Positions 47,684 to 58,473 of a stretch of 64,000 nt of DNA are shown one piece after another (position 1 is the first letter of the stretch; each line of letters opens with the position of its first letter). This stretch comes from Pseudonocardia sp. T1-2H. GTDB taxonomy: Bacteria; Actinomycetota; Actinomycetes; Mycobacteriales; Pseudonocardiaceae. Under the pieces are notes generated by a model that was not told where the DNA came from, did not search any database, and saw nothing but the letters and a program-made list of their open reading frames with translations. Both the position numbers and the translations under genes were made by a program. The stretch covers positions 3,410,001-3,474,000 of the forward strand of contig NZ_JBBPCL010000001.1 in NCBI RefSeq assembly GCF_038039215.1, read 5' to 3'.

Positions 47684-48949
47684 ATGGTGCTGTTCGGTTC
47701 ACGTGATGGTGGAGCACCCACGACGACCCGCGACCGGCCCCGACCACCGCAGGAGCGCCGGGAGGTCGTGGTCCCGCCGCACGGGGAGCAGCCGGTCCGC
47801 CTCGGTCTCCCCCGGCTGCTCGAGATCGCCGGGATCACTCCCGCTCAGGCCCTCGCGCTGGGCGCCGACGTGCTGGCCGGGCTGGAGTCCAGACACGCGG
47901 CCGGAGGGGACGGGCTGTCCCCGAAGGACGTCCACGTCGGACCGGACGGCCGGGCCCGGCTGGCCGATCGGGCGCAGGTGGCCGATCGGGCGCAGGTGGC
48001 CGATCGGGCGCAGGTGGCCGATTGGGCGCAGGTGGACGGACACCTCCCGGGGACGGAGGAACCCGACCTCACTGCCGCCGCGACGTTGCTCGACGACCTG
48101 GGCGGGGCCGCCCGGCGGACGGCCCGGCACCCCGACGCGCGAGCGGTCGAGCGGCTGGCCGCGCTGGACGCGGCCGTCGTCGAAGCGACCCGGCCGGGCG
48201 GCAGCATCGCGGCGGTCGCGGCGGGGTTGCGCGACGCCGACGCCTCCGGCGGTACCGCGGCCCGGGCCGAGCTCGCCCGGCTGGTCGCCGCCGCACACGG
48301 CCGGGTCGCCGGTCCGGCGCCCGGGGCAGCCGGCACCGCACCCCGGCCGTCGGCGCCGCCCGCCCCCGCCGCAGGCCGGGCTCCGCGGGGCCTCGCACGC
48401 TCCGTCGCCGCCCGAACGTGGAAGTGGGCCGTCTCGCTCCTCGTGCTCGTCACGGTGATCGCGATCGAGTTCGCGTTCCTGCGCGACCAGATCGCCCGGG
48501 ACATCGCGGCGCTCTTCGAGGCCGGCGGCCACGGCTCGACGACGTCGGACGCCTCCGCCGGGGAGCCGGCCCCGATCGTCGCCCCGGCCCCGCCCACCGC
48601 GGGCGCCGTCACCGCCGTCGACCTGCGGACGATGGGCCCCTGCGCTCCCGGCCAGGCCTGCGAGGCGCGGGTGCAGGTCCGGCTACGCCCCGGATCCGAG
48701 CCGCAGACCGTGGACTGGTCCTTCCACGTCGTCGACCGCTGCACCGGCGCGGTCGTGGTCCTTCCGGGCGGGACGGTCACGGTCCCGCCGAACGGCGATC
48801 GCGCCGACGCGGTCGACGCGCTCGCCCTGCCACCCGGGGACGCGCTCGCCGTGCTGGCCCTGACGGGCGCGCCCGACACGGCGGCCAGCGCGCCGGTGTC
48901 CGTCCCGGCGCAGGGCTCGTGCACGGTTCCTGCCGAACCGTCCCGCTGA
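47684..48949 (+). CDS. One-TM protein upstream of the RodA-PBP fusion
   Basis: A 421-residue bitopic membrane protein. The cytoplasmic part (residues 1-245) has a helical region PRLLEIAGITPAQALALGAD, a segment PKDVHVGPDGRARLAD reminiscent of a kinase catalytic-loop surface, and an in-frame hexapeptide repeat ADRAQV. One transmembrane helix lies near residues 246-264 (WAVSLLVLVTVIAIEFAFL). The outer part has two cysteines in PCAPGQACEARVQVRLRPG and looks like a beta domain. It ends 20 bases before the fusion gene, so it is probably a cofactor of that enzyme; the family was not recognised. Confidence 0.75.
   Translation: MVLFGSRDGGAPTTTRDRPRPPQERREVVVPPHGEQPVRLGLPRLLEIAGITPAQALALGADVLAGLESRHAAGGDGLSPKDVHVGPDGRARLADRAQVADRAQVADRAQVADWAQVDGHLPGTEEPDLTAAATLLDDLGGAARRTARHPDARAVERLAALDAAVVEATRPGGSIAAVAAGLRDADASGGTAARAELARLVAAAHGRVAGPAPGAAGTAPRPSAPPAPAAGRAPRGLARSVAARTWKWAVSLLVLVTVIAIEFAFLRDQIARDIAALFEAGGHGSTTSDASAGEPAPIVAPAPPTAGAVTAVDLRTMGPCAPGQACEARVQVRLRPGSEPQTVDWSFHVVDRCTGAVVVLPGGTVTVPPNGDRADAVDALALPPGDALAVLALTGAPDTAASAPVSVPAQGSCTVPAEPSR
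47962..48033 (+). repeat. Four in-frame 18-bp repeats
   Basis: GGCCGATCGGGCGCAGGT is repeated four times head to tail, the last copy with one change, encoding ADRAQV three times and ADWAQV once. Near identity at DNA level indicates recent slippage expansion and a length-variable linker. Confidence 0.85.
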
Positions 48950-48969: not shown

Positions 48970-51915
48970 GTGCTGATCGTGGAGAGTGGTGGTTCGCCGG
49001 GAACGCCGCACGAGCCCCCGCCGAACGAGAGGCTGCGGCGCAAGGACTCCGGCGGCATCGCCTTCGACGTGCTGGCTATCCTCGCCGCGCTCGTCCTGGT
49101 CGGGCTCGGACTGGCCAACCTCGAGGCGGTCGAGGGACCGGCCACGGCGGCCCGGCAGGCGGCGGTCGGCGCCGTCGGGATCGTCCTCGTGGGGGTCCTG
49201 TGGCGGTTCCGGGTGGGGTTGCTGGTCGTCCTCGGCTGGGTCACCTACCTCCTCGCCGTGCTGCTGCTCGGCGCCGTGCTGGTCATCGGCCTCTCGGCGA
49301 ACGGCGCCACCCGGTGGATCGGCATCGGAGGGTTCACGTTCCAGCCCTCCGAACTGGCCAAGCTCGGGCTGCTGCTCGTGCTCGCCGCGGTCCTCGGTTC
49401 GGACCGCGCCCCGTGGCAGCGCTTCGTGTTCGCGATCGGGCTCGCGCTGGTGCCGATCGGGCTCACGCTGCTCCAGCCGGACCTCAGCACCACGACCCTG
49501 CTGGCCGTGCTCACGGTCGCGATGCTGATCATCGGCCGGGTGCCGGCGCGCTTCCTGCTGCCCATGTTCGCGGCCGCCGCCGTGGCGACGCCGCTGGTCA
49601 TCGGGATGTTACGGCCCTACCAGGTAGAGCGGCTCGGCAGCTTCCTCGTCGGCGCGCACGTGTCTCCCACGGGCGCGGGCTGGGCGGTGCAGCAGGCGCG
49701 GATCGCCCTGGGCTCGGGGTCGCTCTTCGGTCGCTCGGGCGAGCCGCTGACCGACCTGCTGGCCCAGTACCTGCCCGAGCGGGAGTCCGACCTCGCGCTG
49801 GCCAGCGTCGTCGAACAGTTCGGTCTGGTCGCGGGCGGCCTCGTCGTCGTGGCGGCGATCGTGCTGGTGTGGCGGATCGCGCTGGCCAGCCGGGCGCCCC
49901 GCACGCCGCACGGGGCCCTCGTCGGCGGCGGTCTGGCGGTCCTGCTCGGGGTGGAGATCATCGTGTCGCTGGGAGGCAACCTCGGGTTGCTGCCGCTGGC
50001 CGGGGTGCCGTTCCCGCTGCTCAGCATCGGGGGGACGGCGCTTCTGGTGCACCTCGTGGCGCTCGGGGTCGTCCTCGGGGTGCGCCGGGACGGGGCGCGT
50101 CGGCGGCTGTGGGCGGTGCCGCGCTGGCGCGCCAGGCCCCGGCTGGTGCGGGCGACCGCGGTGGCGCTGACCGGGCTGCTCGTGGCGTTCGGGCTCTACG
50201 GCTGGAACGTGCAGGCCGCCGAGGGCGCGGCCCTGACCGCGGCGGGGCAGGTGCAGATGACGCGCTGCATCCGGCTCCCCGCCCAACGCGGGATGATCAC
50301 CGATCGGCACGGCGCCCCGCTCGCCACCGGCACCGCCGGCTCCGCCGCCGGGATCGACCAGGTCGTCGCCGTGCCCGCCCTGCTGCGGTCCCGACCCGAC
50401 GACGTCGCCCGGCTCGCCGCGCTCACCGCGCAGCCGGTCGACGCGGTGCGCGCCGCCCTCGACGGCGTGCCCGCGACCACCCTCGCGCTCCGGGTGGCCG
50501 ACGTCCCCCGGGCCACCGGGAACGCGGTCGCCGCGGCCGGAATCAACGGCGTGCTGGTCGTGCCGGAGCCGCGGCGGTCCTACCCGACGGGCCCTCTCCT
50601 CGGCCCGGTCCTCGGGTTCGCGGGGGTGGCCACGCCCGCCGACCTCGAGCGGTGGCCCGACCTGCCCCCGGGCGAGATCGTCGGCCGCGCGGGCCTGGAG
50701 CAGCAGTACGACGCGGTCCTGCGCGGGACGAACGGCCAGCAGTGCGTGTACGTCACGCCGTCGGGCGTACCGGTGGCGATGGGCGCGCGCACGGAGCCGG
50801 TGCCGGGCGCGAACCTGAGGCTGTCGCTGGATCTGGGGCTGCAGCAGCAGCTGACCAGCAGCCTCGAGACGGCGCTGCGGGGCCAGCGGAGCCCGAGCGC
50901 GATCGGCGCGGCCGTCGCGATGGACCCGCGCGACGGCCAGGTCCTCGCGATCGCGAGCCTGCCCTCCTACGACAACAACGTCTACGGTCCGCCGATCGAC
51001 CCGGCCGGGCTGCAGGCCGCCGAGGCGGCACCGGGGCACCCCATGATCGAGCACGTGACCCAGGCCGCCGTGCCGCCGGGATCGACGTTCAAGCTGGTCG
51101 TGGGCGCGGCCGATGTCGCGCATCCGGTGTTCCGGCCCGAGCAGGTGATCCCCACCGGGGCGAGCTTCACCCTCGGCGACCACACGTTCGGCAACTGGCA
51201 GCCGATGGGCCCGATGGACCTCGTCCAGTCCCTCGCCTGGTCGAACGACGTGTACTTCTACAAGCTGGCCAACGCGCTGGGGCCCGATCCGATCATCGAC
51301 GCCGCCCACGCGCTCGGGGTGGGCTCCCCGACCGGGATCGACCTGCCCGCGGAGTCGGCGGGCTACCTCGGCACCCCCCGGTCGGTGCACGAGGGCGGCG
51401 GCGTCTGGTACGGCGGCTCGACGGTGATCCTCGGCATCGGGCAGGGCTACCTGCAGGTCACGCCGTTGCAGAACGCCCGGTGGACGGCCGGCGTCGCCAC
51501 CGGCCGGCTCGTCACCCCGCGGCTGGGCCTGGCCACCGGCACCGGTGGCGGCGCGTTCACCTCCCTGCCCGCCACCGCGTCGACCCCGATCCCGTTCGCC
51601 GGCGCCCTCGGCCCGGTCCGCGACGGGATGCGGGCGGCCGTGACCGGGGGGACCGCCACCCGGCTCGCGGGCCTGCCCGTCCCGGTGGGGGCGAAGTCCG
51701 GGACCGCGGAGGACGGGAGCCTGTCCGCCGACAGCTACGACAACTGGATGACCGCCGCCGCGCCGATGCCGGACCCGGGCGTGGTCATGACGGCGCTGGT
51801 CCAGGGCCCCGGCAAGGGCGCCAACAACGCAGGGATCGTGGTCGCGGACGGACTGCGCTACTACCTCGACCACCAGGCCGACGTGCTCGCGACCCCGCCG
51901 GTGCAGTCGCCGTAG
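48970..51915 (+). CDS. RodA/FtsW (SEDS) glycosyltransferase fused to a class B penicillin-binding protein
   Basis: A 981-residue fusion that joins peptidoglycan polymerisation and cross-linking in one chain. Residues about 25-395 are a polytopic SEDS domain, with WIGIGGFTFQPSELAKLG and the catalytic Asp274 in LPERESDLALAS. One further helix (about 398-415) leads into an extracytoplasmic transpeptidase: the PBP dimerisation region with RGMITDRHGAPLA, Ser705-x-x-Lys708 (PPGSTFKLV), Ser758-Asn-Asp760 and KSGT at 909-912. The SxD second motif is PBP2-like. GTG 48970 has AGGGGG seven bases upstream. All key residues are present, so both activities are expected. Confidence 0.93.
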   Translation: MLIVESGGSPGTPHEPPPNERLRRKDSGGIAFDVLAILAALVLVGLGLANLEAVEGPATAARQAAVGAVGIVLVGVLWRFRVGLLVVLGWVTYLLAVLLLGAVLVIGLSANGATRWIGIGGFTFQPSELAKLGLLLVLAAVLGSDRAPWQRFVFAIGLALVPIGLTLLQPDLSTTTLLAVLTVAMLIIGRVPARFLLPMFAAAAVATPLVIGMLRPYQVERLGSFLVGAHVSPTGAGWAVQQARIALGSGSLFGRSGEPLTDLLAQYLPERESDLALASVVEQFGLVAGGLVVVAAIVLVWRIALASRAPRTPHGALVGGGLAVLLGVEIIVSLGGNLGLLPLAGVPFPLLSIGGTALLVHLVALGVVLGVRRDGARRRLWAVPRWRARPRLVRATAVALTGLLVAFGLYGWNVQAAEGAALTAAGQVQMTRCIRLPAQRGMITDRHGAPLATGTAGSAAGIDQVVAVPALLRSRPDDVARLAALTAQPVDAVRAALDGVPATTLALRVADVPRATGNAVAAAGINGVLVVPEPRRSYPTGPLLGPVLGFAGVATPADLERWPDLPPGEIVGRAGLEQQYDAVLRGTNGQQCVYVTPSGVPVAMGARTEPVPGANLRLSLDLGLQQQLTSSLETALRGQRSPSAIGAAVAMDPRDGQVLAIASLPSYDNNVYGPPIDPAGLQAAEAAPGHPMIEHVTQAAVPPGSTFKLVVGAADVAHPVFRPEQVIPTGASFTLGDHTFGNWQPMGPMDLVQSLAWSNDVYFYKLANALGPDPIIDAAHALGVGSPTGIDLPAESAGYLGTPRSVHEGGGVWYGGSTVILGIGQGYLQVTPLQNARWTAGVATGRLVTPRLGLATGTGGGAFTSLPATASTPIPFAGALGPVRDGMRAAVTGGTATRLAGLPVPVGAKSGTAEDGSLSADSYDNWMTAAAPMPDPGVVMTALVQGPGKGANNAGIVVADGLRYYLDHQADVLATPPVQSP

Positions 51916-51924
51916 GCGCGGCGC

Positions 51925-52920
51925 TCAGCTGCGGCCGTAGGCCTCCAGCACGCCCGGGCTCCGCAGGCACCGCGCGGCACCCTCGGCGACGCAGGTCAGC
52001 GGGTTCTCGGCCCGTTTCACCGGCAGGCCGAACGCCCGCTCGAGGCCCTGGTCGAACCCGCTGGTGAGGGCGGCCCCGCCGAATATCAGGATTCCGTCGG
52101 CCAGCACGTCGCCGGCGGCCTGCGGCGGCAGGTCGTCCAGGCACCCCGCGAGCGTCCGGACGATCGTGTCGGTGATCGGCCGCAGGACCTCCGCGATCTC
52201 CGCGACCGGGATCGTCTCGAGCCGCGGGCGGCCCGACCCGATGTCCCGCCCGTGCACGACGAGGCTGGGCTCGACGTCGAAACCGGCCTGGACCTTGACC
52301 TCCTCGGCCGCCTGCTCGCCCACGACGAGCTGGTGGTGTTCGCGCAGGTGCTGGTGGACCGCGACCGTCATCTCGTCGCCGGCGACCCGGCAGGACCGGG
52401 AGGCGAGCACGCCGCCGAAACAGAACGCCGTCGCCTCCGCGGTACCCCCTCCTACGTCGACGACCATGTGGACACGCCGCTCCAGCGGGTCGATCCCACA
52501 GCCGACCGCGCCGGCGATGGACTCGTCGAGCACCGTCGTGCCGCTCATGCCGGCCTCGTCCGCAGCCTCCAGCAGCGCACGCCGTTCCAGCGTCGTGGCA
52601 CCGCTGGGCACGCCGATGACCACCCGGCCCCTGCCCCGCAGCCAGGGGCGCCGCGCGATCCGGCGGAGGACGGCCTGCAGGTAGAGCTGCGCCGTCTCCA
52701 GGTCGACGATCACGCCGTCGTGCAGGGGCCGCATCGCGGTCAACCCCACGGGTGCCCGCCCGATCAGCTCCGACGCCTCCCGGCCGATCGCCACGATCCG
52801 CCCGCGACGGGCGCGCGCGCCGCGCAGCAGGAGTACCGACGGCTCGTCGAACAGGATGCCGTCGTCGGCGTGGCACACGACGGTGTTCGCGGTGCCGAGA
52901 TCGATCCCGAGATCGGCCAC
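51925..52920 (-). CDS. MreB-like actin-family protein
   Basis: A 331-residue bacterial actin homologue, start GTG 52920 behind GGGGGAGGA. ATP-binding motifs are clear: phosphate 1 LGIDLGTANTVV, phosphate 2 VVDVGGGTAEATAF, the connecting IGVPSGATTLERRALLEAA, and the adenosine motif ILIFGGAALTSGFD. MreB proteins polymerise under the membrane and guide the RodA-PBP2 machinery. The gene is convergent with the fusion gene, ten bases apart. Many polar-growing actinobacteria lack MreB, so the protein may serve a special wall, for example in spores. Confidence 0.88.
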   Translation of the reverse strand: MADLGIDLGTANTVVCHADDGILFDEPSVLLLRGARARRGRIVAIGREASELIGRAPVGLTAMRPLHDGVIVDLETAQLYLQAVLRRIARRPWLRGRGRVVIGVPSGATTLERRALLEAADEAGMSGTTVLDESIAGAVGCGIDPLERRVHMVVDVGGGTAEATAFCFGGVLASRSCRVAGDEMTVAVHQHLREHHQLVVGEQAAEEVKVQAGFDVEPSLVVHGRDIGSGRPRLETIPVAEIAEVLRPITDTIVRTLAGCLDDLPPQAAGDVLADGILIFGGAALTSGFDQGLERAFGLPVKRAENPLTCVAEGAARCLRSPGVLEAYGRS

Positions 52921-53352
52921 AGATCCTCCCCCAGCACCAGCGTCGCCCCGAGAACCGGGAGTGCCAGTCTGCTGGTGCGGCGGGAGCCGGTCCAGCAACT
53001 CGGCCTCGTTCGCCGACGCATCCTCCTTTCGGTCGCGTCGACAGGCCCTTATGGGAGGACCTCTCCCGCCCCGGATGCCGTACGCCTCGGCCATACCGAC
53101 GGGACGTGCATTCATGTCCTGGGCCATTCGGTTGCGCGCCATTGATCGCGGCCTCGGCGAATCGTGCGCGATCCGCTGGGCCCGACTCCACCGAGAAGCA
53201 CGGAAGGACGCCGCCGGACCGTGTATCCGGATGAACGGCGGGTACCACCCGAACGGCTCGAGCTGATCGAGGAGCGGACCACGCGATCAGGAGCGGGTGG
53301 CGACGCAACGCACCTCTGCGCTGCGTGCGCCGTTCCCGAGGAGAGGATGGCA
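52921..53352. other. Divergent intergenic region
   Basis: About 430 bases between the MreB-like and DUF2254 genes. A purine-rich AAAGGAGG on the minus strand near 53025 is followed at once by an ATG whose frame overlaps the MreB-like start out of phase; it is too close to be used. No other element was seen. Confidence 0.35.
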
Positions 53353-54666
53353 ATGCTGTCACTGCGCCTGCGTCACCGCCTGCTGGCGAGCCTGTGGCTC
53401 GTCCCCCTGCTGTGCGTGCTGGCCTCGATCGGGCTCTCCCTGGTCACGGTGGCGATCGACCGGGCCTTCGAGGACCGCTTGATCCCGATGGCGATCACCG
53501 GTACCTCGGACGCGGTCAGAACCATCCTGAGCACCATCGCGTCGACCATGGTCACGCTGACGACGCTCGTCCTGACGGTCACCACCGTGGCCATCCAACT
53601 CGCCATGGGGCAGTTCTCGCCGCGAATCGTGCGGGCGCTGCTCCAGGACCGGTCCAGCCAGCTCGCCTACGGACTGTTCGCCTCCACCTTCACCTTCGCG
53701 ATACTGGCGTTGCGCGAGGTGGGGGCCGTCGGCGGCAACACCGTCCCCGGGCTGACCGTCCTGGTCGCCTACCTGCTGATGCTGGGCAGCGTCGCCACCC
53801 TCTTCCTCTACATCCACCACTCCGGCAACGCCCTGCGCGCCGCCGGGCTGATCGACCTGGTCGGCGACGAGCTCCATGCGCAACTCGACCGGGAGTACCC
53901 CGCCGACCGCCCCCGGTCCGCCCCGCCCGACGTCGTACTCAGCGCCGAGGCCGGAACCGTGATCGAGGTCGACCATCCCCGGCTGGTCGCGGTCGCCCGG
54001 GACGCCGGCTGCGTGCTCGAACTGGTCCCGATGATGGGCGATTACGTGCCCTTCGACGCGCCGCTGTTCCGGATCGACGGCGACCCGGGGCGTCTGGACG
54101 GCGATCACGTCGCCGGGCTCGTCGTCCTCGCGGCCGAACGAACCCACGAGGACGACCCGGCCTACGGCTTCCGCAAGCTCGTCGACATCGCCGAGCGCAG
54201 CGTCGCGCAGCCCTTCAACGACCCGACGACCGCCATCATGGTGATCAACCGGCTGCACGACTGCCTGCGCCAGCTCGCCGGCCGGCGCTTCCCGTCCGGG
54301 CGCCACTGCGACGCCGACGGCGACGTGCGGCTCATCGAGCGCACCCTCGGCTGGGAGGGCTACGTCCGGCTCGCGTTCGACGAACTCCGGCTCGCCGGAG
54401 CCGCCTCACCGCAGGTGCCGCGGCGCCTGCGGGCCGCGTTGGAGGACCTCAAGACCGTCGCCCCGCCGGACCGGCACCCGCCCCTGGACCGGCAGCTGGA
54501 CCTCCTCGCCGCCGGGGTCGCCCGCGGGTTCGACGACGGCGACGACCGGCGCGCCGCGCTCGTCCCCGATCAGCAAGGGATCGGATCCGGGCCCGACGTC
54601 GAGGACGGCCGCGCGCCCACGTCGTCCGGCGACCTGGCGTCGACAGCCCGCGGCCGCCACGACTGA
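53353..54666 (+). CDS. DUF2254 membrane protein
   Basis: A 437-residue membrane protein. ATG 53353 is six bases after GGAGAGG; an ATG two codons upstream touches the ribosome site and is less likely. Four hydrophobic segments lie near residues 10-30, 60-85, 105-120 and 134-155, with the conserved TLTTLVLTVTTVAIQLAMGQFSPR shown here by VAIQLAMGQFSPRIVRA. The large cytoplasmic part has YGFRKLVDIAERSVAQPFNDPTTA-type sequence (AERSVAQPFNDPTTA). This family is widespread and uncharacterised. Confidence 0.88.
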   Translation: MLSLRLRHRLLASLWLVPLLCVLASIGLSLVTVAIDRAFEDRLIPMAITGTSDAVRTILSTIASTMVTLTTLVLTVTTVAIQLAMGQFSPRIVRALLQDRSSQLAYGLFASTFTFAILALREVGAVGGNTVPGLTVLVAYLLMLGSVATLFLYIHHSGNALRAAGLIDLVGDELHAQLDREYPADRPRSAPPDVVLSAEAGTVIEVDHPRLVAVARDAGCVLELVPMMGDYVPFDAPLFRIDGDPGRLDGDHVAGLVVLAAERTHEDDPAYGFRKLVDIAERSVAQPFNDPTTAIMVINRLHDCLRQLAGRRFPSGRHCDADGDVRLIERTLGWEGYVRLAFDELRLAGAASPQVPRRLRAALEDLKTVAPPDRHPPLDRQLDLLAAGVARGFDDGDDRRAALVPDQQGIGSGPDVEDGRAPTSSGDLASTARGRHD

Positions 54667-56723: not shown

Positions 56724-57488
56724 TCAGGGCAGGCCGCGCGCGCTGAGCAGCAGCCAGCCCAGGAACCGGGCGCTGTCGTCGAGGCGCTGACGCTCCTCCT
56801 CGACGGCCTCGGGGTACCCCACCGGATCGCCGTGGTGTTCCCAGACCCGCTCGGCGGCCTCCCACGCGAGGGACCGGGTGACGCGGACGAGCAGGTCGGA
56901 GGCCGCGTTGCCGAACCGGTCGAGGATCCCGCCCTCCTCGGTCTCGGCGAGGAACGCGCCGAAGTCCTCACGCAGGTCGTCCATCTCCTCGGCGAAGATG
57001 TCGTTGACCAGGTCGTAGTCGTACCTCCGGTCCGCGGTCGGCGGGTAGGTCCTCCAGGTCTCGAGCAGGGCGAACGTCAGGTCGAAGTTGACGTGCGCAT
57101 TCACCCCGGCGGCCGCGAAGTTGGGGTGCCCGACGGCCTGGTCGTCGCGGCGGTCGAACAGCACCGTCCAGCAGCGGGGCGTGTCCGGGGCCCCGGTCGC
57201 GTACTTCTGGATCGCCGCGAGGTAGCGCCGGGCGAACTCCAGGTCGAGCAGGGTGAGGAAGGCCGGATCGCGGAACTCCCGCTTCTCCCGCCTGCCCTCG
57301 ACGGTCTCCAGGATGTTCTTGGTGATGGTGCAGTAGAGCCGGGAGAAGCAGGAGATCCCGTCGATCTGCGGCTGCACGAGGTCCGCGGCCGCGGTGTCCC
57401 TGATCGCGGCGAGCCGCTCGACCACATCCTTGATCGTCTCGACCTCGGTGCAGAACTCCGCCAGGTCCTTCGCGCCTTCTCGGGCCAC
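56724..57488 (-). CDS. DUF5995 family protein
   Basis: A 254-residue soluble protein from the GTG at 57488, with GGGGAG upstream. Family stretches are DTAAADLVQPQIDGISCFSRLYCTIT (key part GISCFSRLYCTIT) and GHPNFAAAGVNAHVNFDL, the latter rich in possible metal ligands (His, Asn, Asp), followed by a long helical second half. The family is common in actinobacteria and also occurs in bacteroidetes; its function is unknown. The gene ends eight bases from the convergent STAS-PucR gene. Confidence 0.75.
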   Translation of the reverse strand: MAREGAKDLAEFCTEVETIKDVVERLAAIRDTAAADLVQPQIDGISCFSRLYCTITKNILETVEGRREKREFRDPAFLTLLDLEFARRYLAAIQKYATGAPDTPRCWTVLFDRRDDQAVGHPNFAAAGVNAHVNFDLTFALLETWRTYPPTADRRYDYDLVNDIFAEEMDDLREDFGAFLAETEEGGILDRFGNAASDLLVRVTRSLAWEAAERVWEHHGDPVGYPEAVEEERQRLDDSARFLGWLLLSARGLP

Positions 57489-57576
57489 CGTCCGTGCTCC
57501 CCCGCCTCGTCCACGTCGTCCACTGAGGAGAGCACGGAGAGAGCGGTTCGGATACCCCGGTCCCGTCCCGCGGGGA

Positions 57577-58473
57577 TCAGCCGACGTACTCGGAGACGAG
57601 GACGAGATCGGGCAGGAGCGACTGGTACTCGGCGTGGGTGCGGTGCTCGGTGGTGCGCCAGCGGCCTCCGTCGACGGTCCGCATCGTCTCCCGGTACCCG
57701 GGGACGCCGGGGAAGCCGACGTTGTCGGCCACCACGACGGAGCCGGGACGGAGCCAGCCGGCGGCTTCGATGCGTTCCAGATCGGGCAGGTAGGCGTTCT
57801 TGTCGTGGTCGAGGAAGAGCAGGTCGAGCGCGCCGGGGCCGAGGCCGTGCTCGTCACGGAGCGTCCGGAGCGTCGCGCCGCCGTCGCCGAGCGTCCCGAC
57901 GATCACGCTCACGCGGTCGGCGACGCCGGCATGGCGCCAGATGCTGCGGGCGACGGCCGCGTTGGCGGGGCTGAACTCGACGGAGCAGACCGTGGCCGAG
58001 GGCATCGCGCGGGCGATCCGCAGGGCGCTGTACCCGCAGTAGGTGCCGAGCTCCAGGACCAGCCGGGGCCGGGCACGGCGGACCGCGGCGTCCAGGATCT
58101 CGCCCTTCTCGTCGCCGATATTGATCATGAAAGTGCGGGTGTGGCAGAACTCGTCGACGGCGCGGATCGCGTCGTCGACGTCGCCGGCGCGGGCGGTGGC
58201 GAGGACGTGGTCGGCGAGCGCCTGTTCGCGGCCGTCGCCGACCTGCCACTCCCGCAGCAGGCGCCTCGACCCGAGCACGAGCCGCAGGAAGGACCACCGC
58301 AGGAAGGGCACCGGCTTGCCCGCCGCGTCGTTGACGGCGACGGCGGCGCCCGCGGCTGCGGTGGCCCAGAGGATCCTGCGCAGGGACGCGGGCACGTTCA
58401 CCCCGCTCGCGGCGGCTCCCGCGCCGACGGCGAGTGCTGCCGACGCCAGGAGTGAGCGGCGGTTCCGCAGCAT
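57577..58473 (-). CDS. Membrane-anchored O-methyltransferase
   Basis: SAM-dependent catechol O-methyltransferase-like protein of 298 residues. The N-terminal 50 residues contain a hydrophobic Ala-rich anchor (LLASAALAVGAGAAASG and LWATAAAGAAVAV). The catalytic domain has the SAM motif LVLELGTYCGYSALRIA, the acidic VCSVEFSP, and LLFLDHDKNAYLPDL with the metal-binding Asp-His-Asp region and VVADNVGFPG. A diphenolic substrate and a divalent metal are expected from the family. It stands alone, divergent from the secreted AMIN-like gene. Confidence 0.85.
   Translation of the reverse strand: MLRNRRSLLASAALAVGAGAAASGVNVPASLRRILWATAAAGAAVAVNDAAGKPVPFLRWSFLRLVLGSRRLLREWQVGDGREQALADHVLATARAGDVDDAIRAVDEFCHTRTFMINIGDEKGEILDAAVRRARPRLVLELGTYCGYSALRIARAMPSATVCSVEFSPANAAVARSIWRHAGVADRVSVIVGTLGDGGATLRTLRDEHGLGPGALDLLFLDHDKNAYLPDLERIEAAGWLRPGSVVVADNVGFPGVPGYRETMRTVDGGRWRTTEHRTHAEYQSLLPDLVLVSEYVG

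Follow-up and report, generated by a model that had tools for sequence, protein, structure and literature searches.

The Rod complex of Escherichia coli consists of MreB, MreC, MreD, RodZ, RodA and PBP2. Binding to MreB has been reported both for the cytoplasmic portion of PBP2 and for the C-terminal tail of RodA (PMC13327600), joining RodA to PBP2 through a linker in a synthetic fusion brings back rod shape for the most part (PMC6207328), and MreB together with an activated RodA-PBP2 has been described as a minimal elongasome (Zhan et al. 2026; PMC13327600). Leu61 of PBP2 lies at the hinge between the transmembrane (TM) segment and the periplasmic domain, and the L61R substitution switches on RodA-PBP2 and partially rescues cells that lack MreCD and RodZ (PMC13327600; PMC6207328). 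The roles of MreC, MreD and RodZ, as well as the question of how small an actin-guided wall synthase can be, have so far been approached through such bypass mutants. Among actinobacteria, mycobacteria and corynebacteria lack MreB according to earlier papers, which say so in nearly identical wording, and Streptomyces uses MreB for sporulation (PMC3296230, PMC4255298, PMC8262863). A natural SEDS-PBP fusion in a single open reading frame has already been mentioned as precedent for a construct, with the Rhodococcus RHA1 genome paper given as the reference (reference 18 in PMC10449877).

The present study concerns a stretch of 64,000 nucleotides (the window) from the soil actinobacterium Pseudonocardia sp. 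T1-2H, in which an earlier note, made from the sequence alone, had pointed out a RodA-PBP fusion gene. The analysis revealed that a TM partner, the fusion and an MreB constitute a conserved three-gene module, and the fusion looks like part of a unit resembling a naturally occurring form of the Rod complex that lacks MreC. A literature search, outside which most subscription papers fell, found no account of the three-gene module, the partner or the cysteine pair described below. All parts except the partner are of known kinds, and their combination appears to be new.

Architecture of the fusion and its neighbours

Table 1. Features of the module, with positions in the window.
Feature	Position	Strand	Details
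Partner (P0002), 421-aa single-pass protein	47684..48949	+	ORF; AF2 mean pLDDT 81.9, pTM 0.50
Partner, predicted kinase C-lobe-like domain, residues 36-207	47789..48304	+	
18-bp tandem repeat within partner gene	47951..48035	+	local expansion; fewer copies in closest relative
Partner, TM segment, residues 248-266	48425..48481	+	hydropathy maximum; helix 240-282 in AF2 model
Partner, Ig-like ectodomain (model), residues 305-415	48596..48928	+	four invariant cysteines
RodA-PBP2 fusion, 981 aa	48970..51915	+	single frame open for 981 codons from GTG; AF2 mean pLDDT 88.4, pTM 0.77
SEDS (RodA-type) polymerase domain, residues 37-373	49078..50088	+	PF01098 E 3.2e-59, 201 bits (cut-off 26.4)
Catalytic Asp274	49789..49791	+	aligned with E. 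coli RodA Asp262; 80/80 fusions
Linker, residues ~372-395, RodA C-tail to PBP2 N-terminus	50083..50154	+	presumed cytoplasmic from the topology of SEDS proteins and PBPs
Cys433, PBP hinge	50266..50268	+	aligned with E. coli PBP2 Leu61; 79/80 fusions
PBP dimerisation (pedestal) domain, residues 436-602	50275..50775	+	PF03717 E 9.9e-21
Cys592, putative disulfide partner of Cys433	50743..50745	+	79/80 fusions
Transpeptidase domain, residues 646-953 (Ser705, Lys708, Ser758, Lys909)	50905..51828	+	PF00905 E 6.6e-46, motifs
Module MreB, 331 aa, convergent	51925..52920	-	PF06723 E 9.7e-87; 9 bp between its stop codon and that of the fusion

The natural fusion of RodA and a PBP in one 981-residue chain, as proposed in the earlier note, was confirmed by the open frame and by the Pfam SEDS, dimerisation and transpeptidase domains (Table 1), and comparison with E. 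coli RodA and PBP2 proved the note's catalytic residues (Asp274, Ser705, Ser758 and Lys909) correctly named. These residues and Lys708 occur without exception in 80/80 aligned fusions, the window's own included, and the motifs STFK (Ser705, Lys708), SND (Ser758) and KSGT (Lys909) correspond to STVK, SAD and KSGT of E. coli PBP2. The chain carries the SxxK, SxN/D and KTG/KSG motifs as well as the dimerisation domain that characterize class B PBPs. In NCBIfam, pbp2_mrdA and rodA_shape were the best models, both short of their cut-offs: TIGR03423 (PBP2/MrdA) ranked top of all models with 346.4 bits (cut-off 455 not reached), and the rodA model scored 220.9 bits versus 184.6 for ftsW, each below its own cut-off. 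The linker between the two halves measures 22-27 aa in the aligned fusions, with a net charge of +2 to +10 and Arg391 in 80/80. The database search returned 483 matches to the fusion, and all three domains were present in 120/120 among the matches listed, which, together with its recurrence across the genus (22/62 genomes), excludes a sequencing accident. A 777-aa protein (P0321) with SEDS, PBP_dimer_2 and transpeptidase domains may, by its domains, represent a second and independent kind of SEDS-PBP fusion, of PbpA type.

At the PBP hinge, Cys433 and Cys592 are both present in 79/80 fusions and both missing from the remaining one, and neither occurs in the 9 canonical class B PBPs aligned with the fusions; Cys433 comes after an invariant arginine (80/80). 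A disulfide between the two cysteines is what we infer from this co-conservation. Their joint loss is what such a bond predicts, but one loss is a single event.

The source genome (7.0 Mb) encodes three SEDS proteins and eight transpeptidase-domain proteins, the fusion being counted in both. One SEDS protein is FtsW by family score, and its gene lies about 7 kb away from that of an FtsI-like PBP. Another SEDS protein and a PBP are encoded as a pair of separate genes between FHA/phosphatase genes and a PASTA kinase gene (PknB), a locus that in actinobacteria corresponds to rodA-pbpA (PMC3296230). For the SEDS protein of this locus the ftsW model gives a better score than the rodA model, and its PbpA has a PBP_dimer_2 domain, whereas the fusion has a PBP2-type domain. 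The fusion is thus an added system: the one-chain arrangement emphasized earlier stands, but the cell has a further RodA-PBP besides it.

The convergent gene, previously called MreB-like, encodes a clear MreB (PF06723, 291 bits, cut-off 27) in which the actin-type phosphate motifs DLGTANT and DVGGGT are kept. Homology and a GGAGGA site place its start at GTG 52920, so that the protein has 331 rather than 405 aa. In NCBIfam it falls below the cut-offs, the nearest model being missed by 0.3 bits.

The partner upstream had been characterized as a repeat-containing protein with one TM segment. A single strong TM segment (approximately residues 248-266) is indeed present, but the repeats are incidental, the conserved parts being the predicted kinase-C-lobe-like and Ig-like domains. 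The partner is predicted, from its model, to combine a kinase-C-lobe-like domain, a TM helix and an Ig-like ectodomain, of which Cys320, Cys326, Cys353 and Cys413 are kept in 90/90 aligned sequences. The kinase-like domain is absent from the partner in 10 Pseudonocardia loci and is therefore not essential everywhere. The 18-bp repeat encodes repeated AQVADR-like units. In one Pseudonocardia subclade (L076-L078) a partner without the kinase-like domain accompanies a fast-evolving MreB, whose first phosphate motif reads DVGSGST in L078, and ten proteins of 650-722 aa (P0205-P0214) match the partner profile weakly and along only a portion of that profile.

Distribution, gene order and origin

The survey suggested in the earlier note, for SEDS and transpeptidase domains in one protein together with their neighbouring genes, found the fusion in 22/62 genomes of the genus, the source genome included (one copy is cut by a contig end and one is spread over two contigs), and in 17 genomes outside it, 5 among 394 of the class and 12 among 298 of the order, the source genome being excluded. 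Within the genus, a strong match to the module MreB (E 4e-84 or better) was obtained in precisely those 22 genomes, whereas the other 40, some of which are incomplete, gave 2e-6 or poorer, or none. Outside the genus, MreB (PF06723 < 1e-30) was found in 17/17 fusion-positive versus 0/36 fusion-negative genomes, the latter having been chosen from the same family and order and not drawn at random. With 22/22 versus 0/40 and 17/17 versus 0/36, the idea of a dedicated wall-synthesis locus with its own MreB is borne out, although the carriers are related and the counts are not independent trials.

Gene order was evaluated in 40 stretches, covering 38 of the 39 carrier genomes (all except G578; G052 was judged from its second contig). 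In all 38 the MreB gene is on the downstream side of the fusion, in convergent orientation in 34 and on the same strand in 4, so that the order is kept despite the flipped orientation. The gap between the two genes is below approximately 130 bp in 33 carriers, approximately 0.9-1.0 kb in 3 and 7-9 kb in 2; the last two are chromosome-type loci, and tight linkage is therefore not absolute. The partner ectodomain is encoded upstream of the fusion in 36/36 non-plasmid loci whose contig extends that far, a count that omits L068, L075, L085 and L111, where the contig ends short of the position, and that includes genomes identical or nearly so in the partner protein (G015 and G016; G020 and G059). 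Among the remaining genes of the window between 38 and 62 kb, none is shared beside the fusion by more than 4 other loci.

Several observations concern the surroundings of the module and related genes elsewhere. Genes for a DUF2254 membrane protein (53164-54666, + strand) and a DUF5995 protein (56724-57857, - strand) lie nearby and are not conserved beside the module. In G010, which has a full module elsewhere, a 100-aa piece resembling the module MreB (45%; L138:4689-5612) lies about 12 kb away from an isolated gene of the FtsW family. Fusion-negative Pseudonocardia loci (L134-L137, L139) contain extra stand-alone SEDS genes with 34-37% identity to the SEDS half of the fusion and no PBP, MreB or partner adjoining.

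In phylogenetic trees, the SEDS halves of the fusions (25 rows against 10 canonical ones) and their PBP halves (26 against 9) each formed one group with 100/100 support, and 19 module MreB rows formed a clade apart from 9 canonical MreB rows (100/100); these clades exclude the canonical mre-locus homologues of other actinobacteria. The fusion SEDS half falls on the RodA side, separated by a 100/99 branch from two FtsW rows, each of which scores above the FtsW cut-off; given the long branches of the canonical rows, its exact sister group is uncertain. These single clades make one origin of the fusion the most likely course, together with an MreB lineage of its own. A monophyletic grouping of the Pseudonocardia fusions, tested after earlier trees hinted at it, was rejected (p-AU 0.0006) because family f4 nests among them, and this nesting suggests transfer. 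The fusion is also found on Rhodococcus plasmids (3 records, 78-83% to the R. opacus query), two copies of which are 47-48% identical to the window's. Neither of the two plasmid loci examined (L087, L088) has an MreB near the fusion; in one, a short upstream gene resembles the partner ectodomain (E 4e-8), and in the other no partner was detected. In the plasmid collection there was no close relative of the module MreB, the best-ranked having 38.5% identity and none exceeding 60%. Both plasmids are large, and the fusion lies near arsenic genes in one and near copper and other metal genes in the other.

Proposed mechanism and competing explanations

The gene fusion, the invariant catalytic residues, the co-occurrence and co-location of MreB and partner, the apparently single origin and the lack of detectable MreC in the genus are most readily read as a self-sufficient peptidoglycan synthase guided by MreB, related to the Rod complex but reduced and operating in the absence of MreC, and we assign this reading a probability of roughly 0.68. 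Against it stand the 4/17 carriers outside the genus that also have MreC, the two Rhodococcus plasmid loci with no MreB close by, the two loci where MreB is 7-9 kb distant, and the partners that lack the kinase-like domain. Every step of the mechanism beyond gene content is one that we infer. The fusion, presumably active in the cell, would polymerise with its RodA half and cross-link with its PBP2 half, and the three products would form a physical complex. Since the cytoplasmic part of PBP2 and the RodA C-tail bind MreB in E. coli and a synthetic RodA-linker-PBP2 works there, the linker, which unites these two ends, is proposed as the site where the module's own MreB filament likely docks. 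The cysteine pair is situated at the hinge that in E. coli PBP2 has to change before RodA is turned on and probably locks or gates the active state, and the partner, kinase-C-lobe-like inside and Ig-like outside, may stand in for an adaptor or activator of the MreC/RodZ type. A more far-reaching version, which we hold only tentatively and consider rather doubtful as a whole, sees here a natural minimal elongasome: both MreB-binding ends would be held in one linker, the hinge disulfide would replace MreC-driven switching, and the TM partner would replace RodZ/MreC by coupling the inner actin filament, through a kinase-C-lobe scaffold, to the outer synthase, through the Ig-like domain. Such a unit would spread among polar-growing actinobacteria and add a second, actin-guided mode of growth.

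Where in the life cycle such a synthase would act is a separate matter, and developmental rather than vegetative use has, in our estimate, somewhat less than an even chance. It would fit a genome that keeps its ordinary rodA-pbpA (FHA/PknB locus) and an FtsW with FtsI-like PBP, and a module dispensable enough not to be found in 40/62 genomes of the genus, some of them incomplete; it would also fit the role of Streptomyces MreB in sporulation (PMC3296230, PMC4255298) and the annotation of MreB in all Geodermatophilaceae genomes of one study, bacteria that bud (PMC9686282). No further window gene, developmental or other, belongs to the conserved module, which speaks against such use. The Rhodococcus carriers, moreover, are not known as spore formers.

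Two further explanations would remove either the missing components or the MreB from the picture, and both are improbable. An ordinary Rod complex with no part truly missing, its MreC, MreD and RodZ being too divergent to be recognised, gains from the fact that MreD is short and hydrophobic and from the searches having relied on one Pfam profile for MreC and one profile for RodZ; the RodZ-type HTH_25 domain was not found in the source genome at E 1e-6, a threshold stricter than the Pfam cut-off at which weaker members could be missed, and at this threshold it occurred in 4/62 genomes of the genus, one of them a carrier. The MreC profile, however, was positive in 8/14 control genomes and in 4/17 carriers outside the genus (in three of which MreC adjoins a second MreB of canonical type), yet in 0/62 within the genus, and the conservation of just three genes at the locus and the Ig-like fold of the partner ectodomain in its model likewise disagree with mere divergence. 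That the fusion is instead a mobile backup synthase working without MreB, the latter being a fellow-travelling neighbour, is similarly unlikely: the plasmid copies without MreB nearby and the rejected monophyly, with f4 nested and transfer suggested, agree with it, but MreB was found in 39/39 carrier genomes tested (22 in the genus, 17 outside) and stays adjacent even where its orientation is flipped.

Relation to described systems

If the reading as a reduced, MreB-guided synthase is right, the module may represent, in a naturally pared-down form, the machinery that gives many rod-like bacteria their shape. It seems to be a naturally solved case of the questions addressed with E. coli mutants, having three genes, a fixed synthase and a hinge cysteine pair, and may be easier to purify and image. 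The MreB-less picture of the polar-growing relatives of mycobacteria is also qualified, as some carriers (probably Rhodococcus) have a dedicated MreB with its own synthase.

The module shares with the E. coli Rod complex an MreB-family filament protein, a RodA-type SEDS protein and a PBP2-type class B PBP with the same catalytic motifs, and differs from it in that RodA and PBP2 form one chain, MreC is not found in the genus, a new single-pass partner is present, MreB belongs to a separate clade and the hinge carries a cysteine pair. The mre cluster and spore wall synthesizing complex of Streptomyces likewise combine an MreB from actinobacteria with a dedicated RodA (Sfr) and PBP2, which are separate there, unlike the single chain of the module. 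For the partner, the KIND domain (kinase non-catalytic C-lobe) of Spire offers a parallel, as a C-lobe of the kinase fold occurring alone beside an actin system, although here the domain is a predicted candidate. The Streptomyces complex includes MreC (PMC4416010), whereas none was found in the genus studied here. The Rhodococcus fusions belong to the same family as the window's, but the passage that refers to such a fusion brings in neither MreB nor a partner (PMC10449877). The minimal elongasome mutants of E. coli (MreB with activated RodA-PBP2) consist of the same core parts and also lack MreC, but they are a laboratory mutational bypass of MreCD and RodZ (PMC13327600), whereas the module occurs in nature as a conserved set of genes and includes an additional partner.
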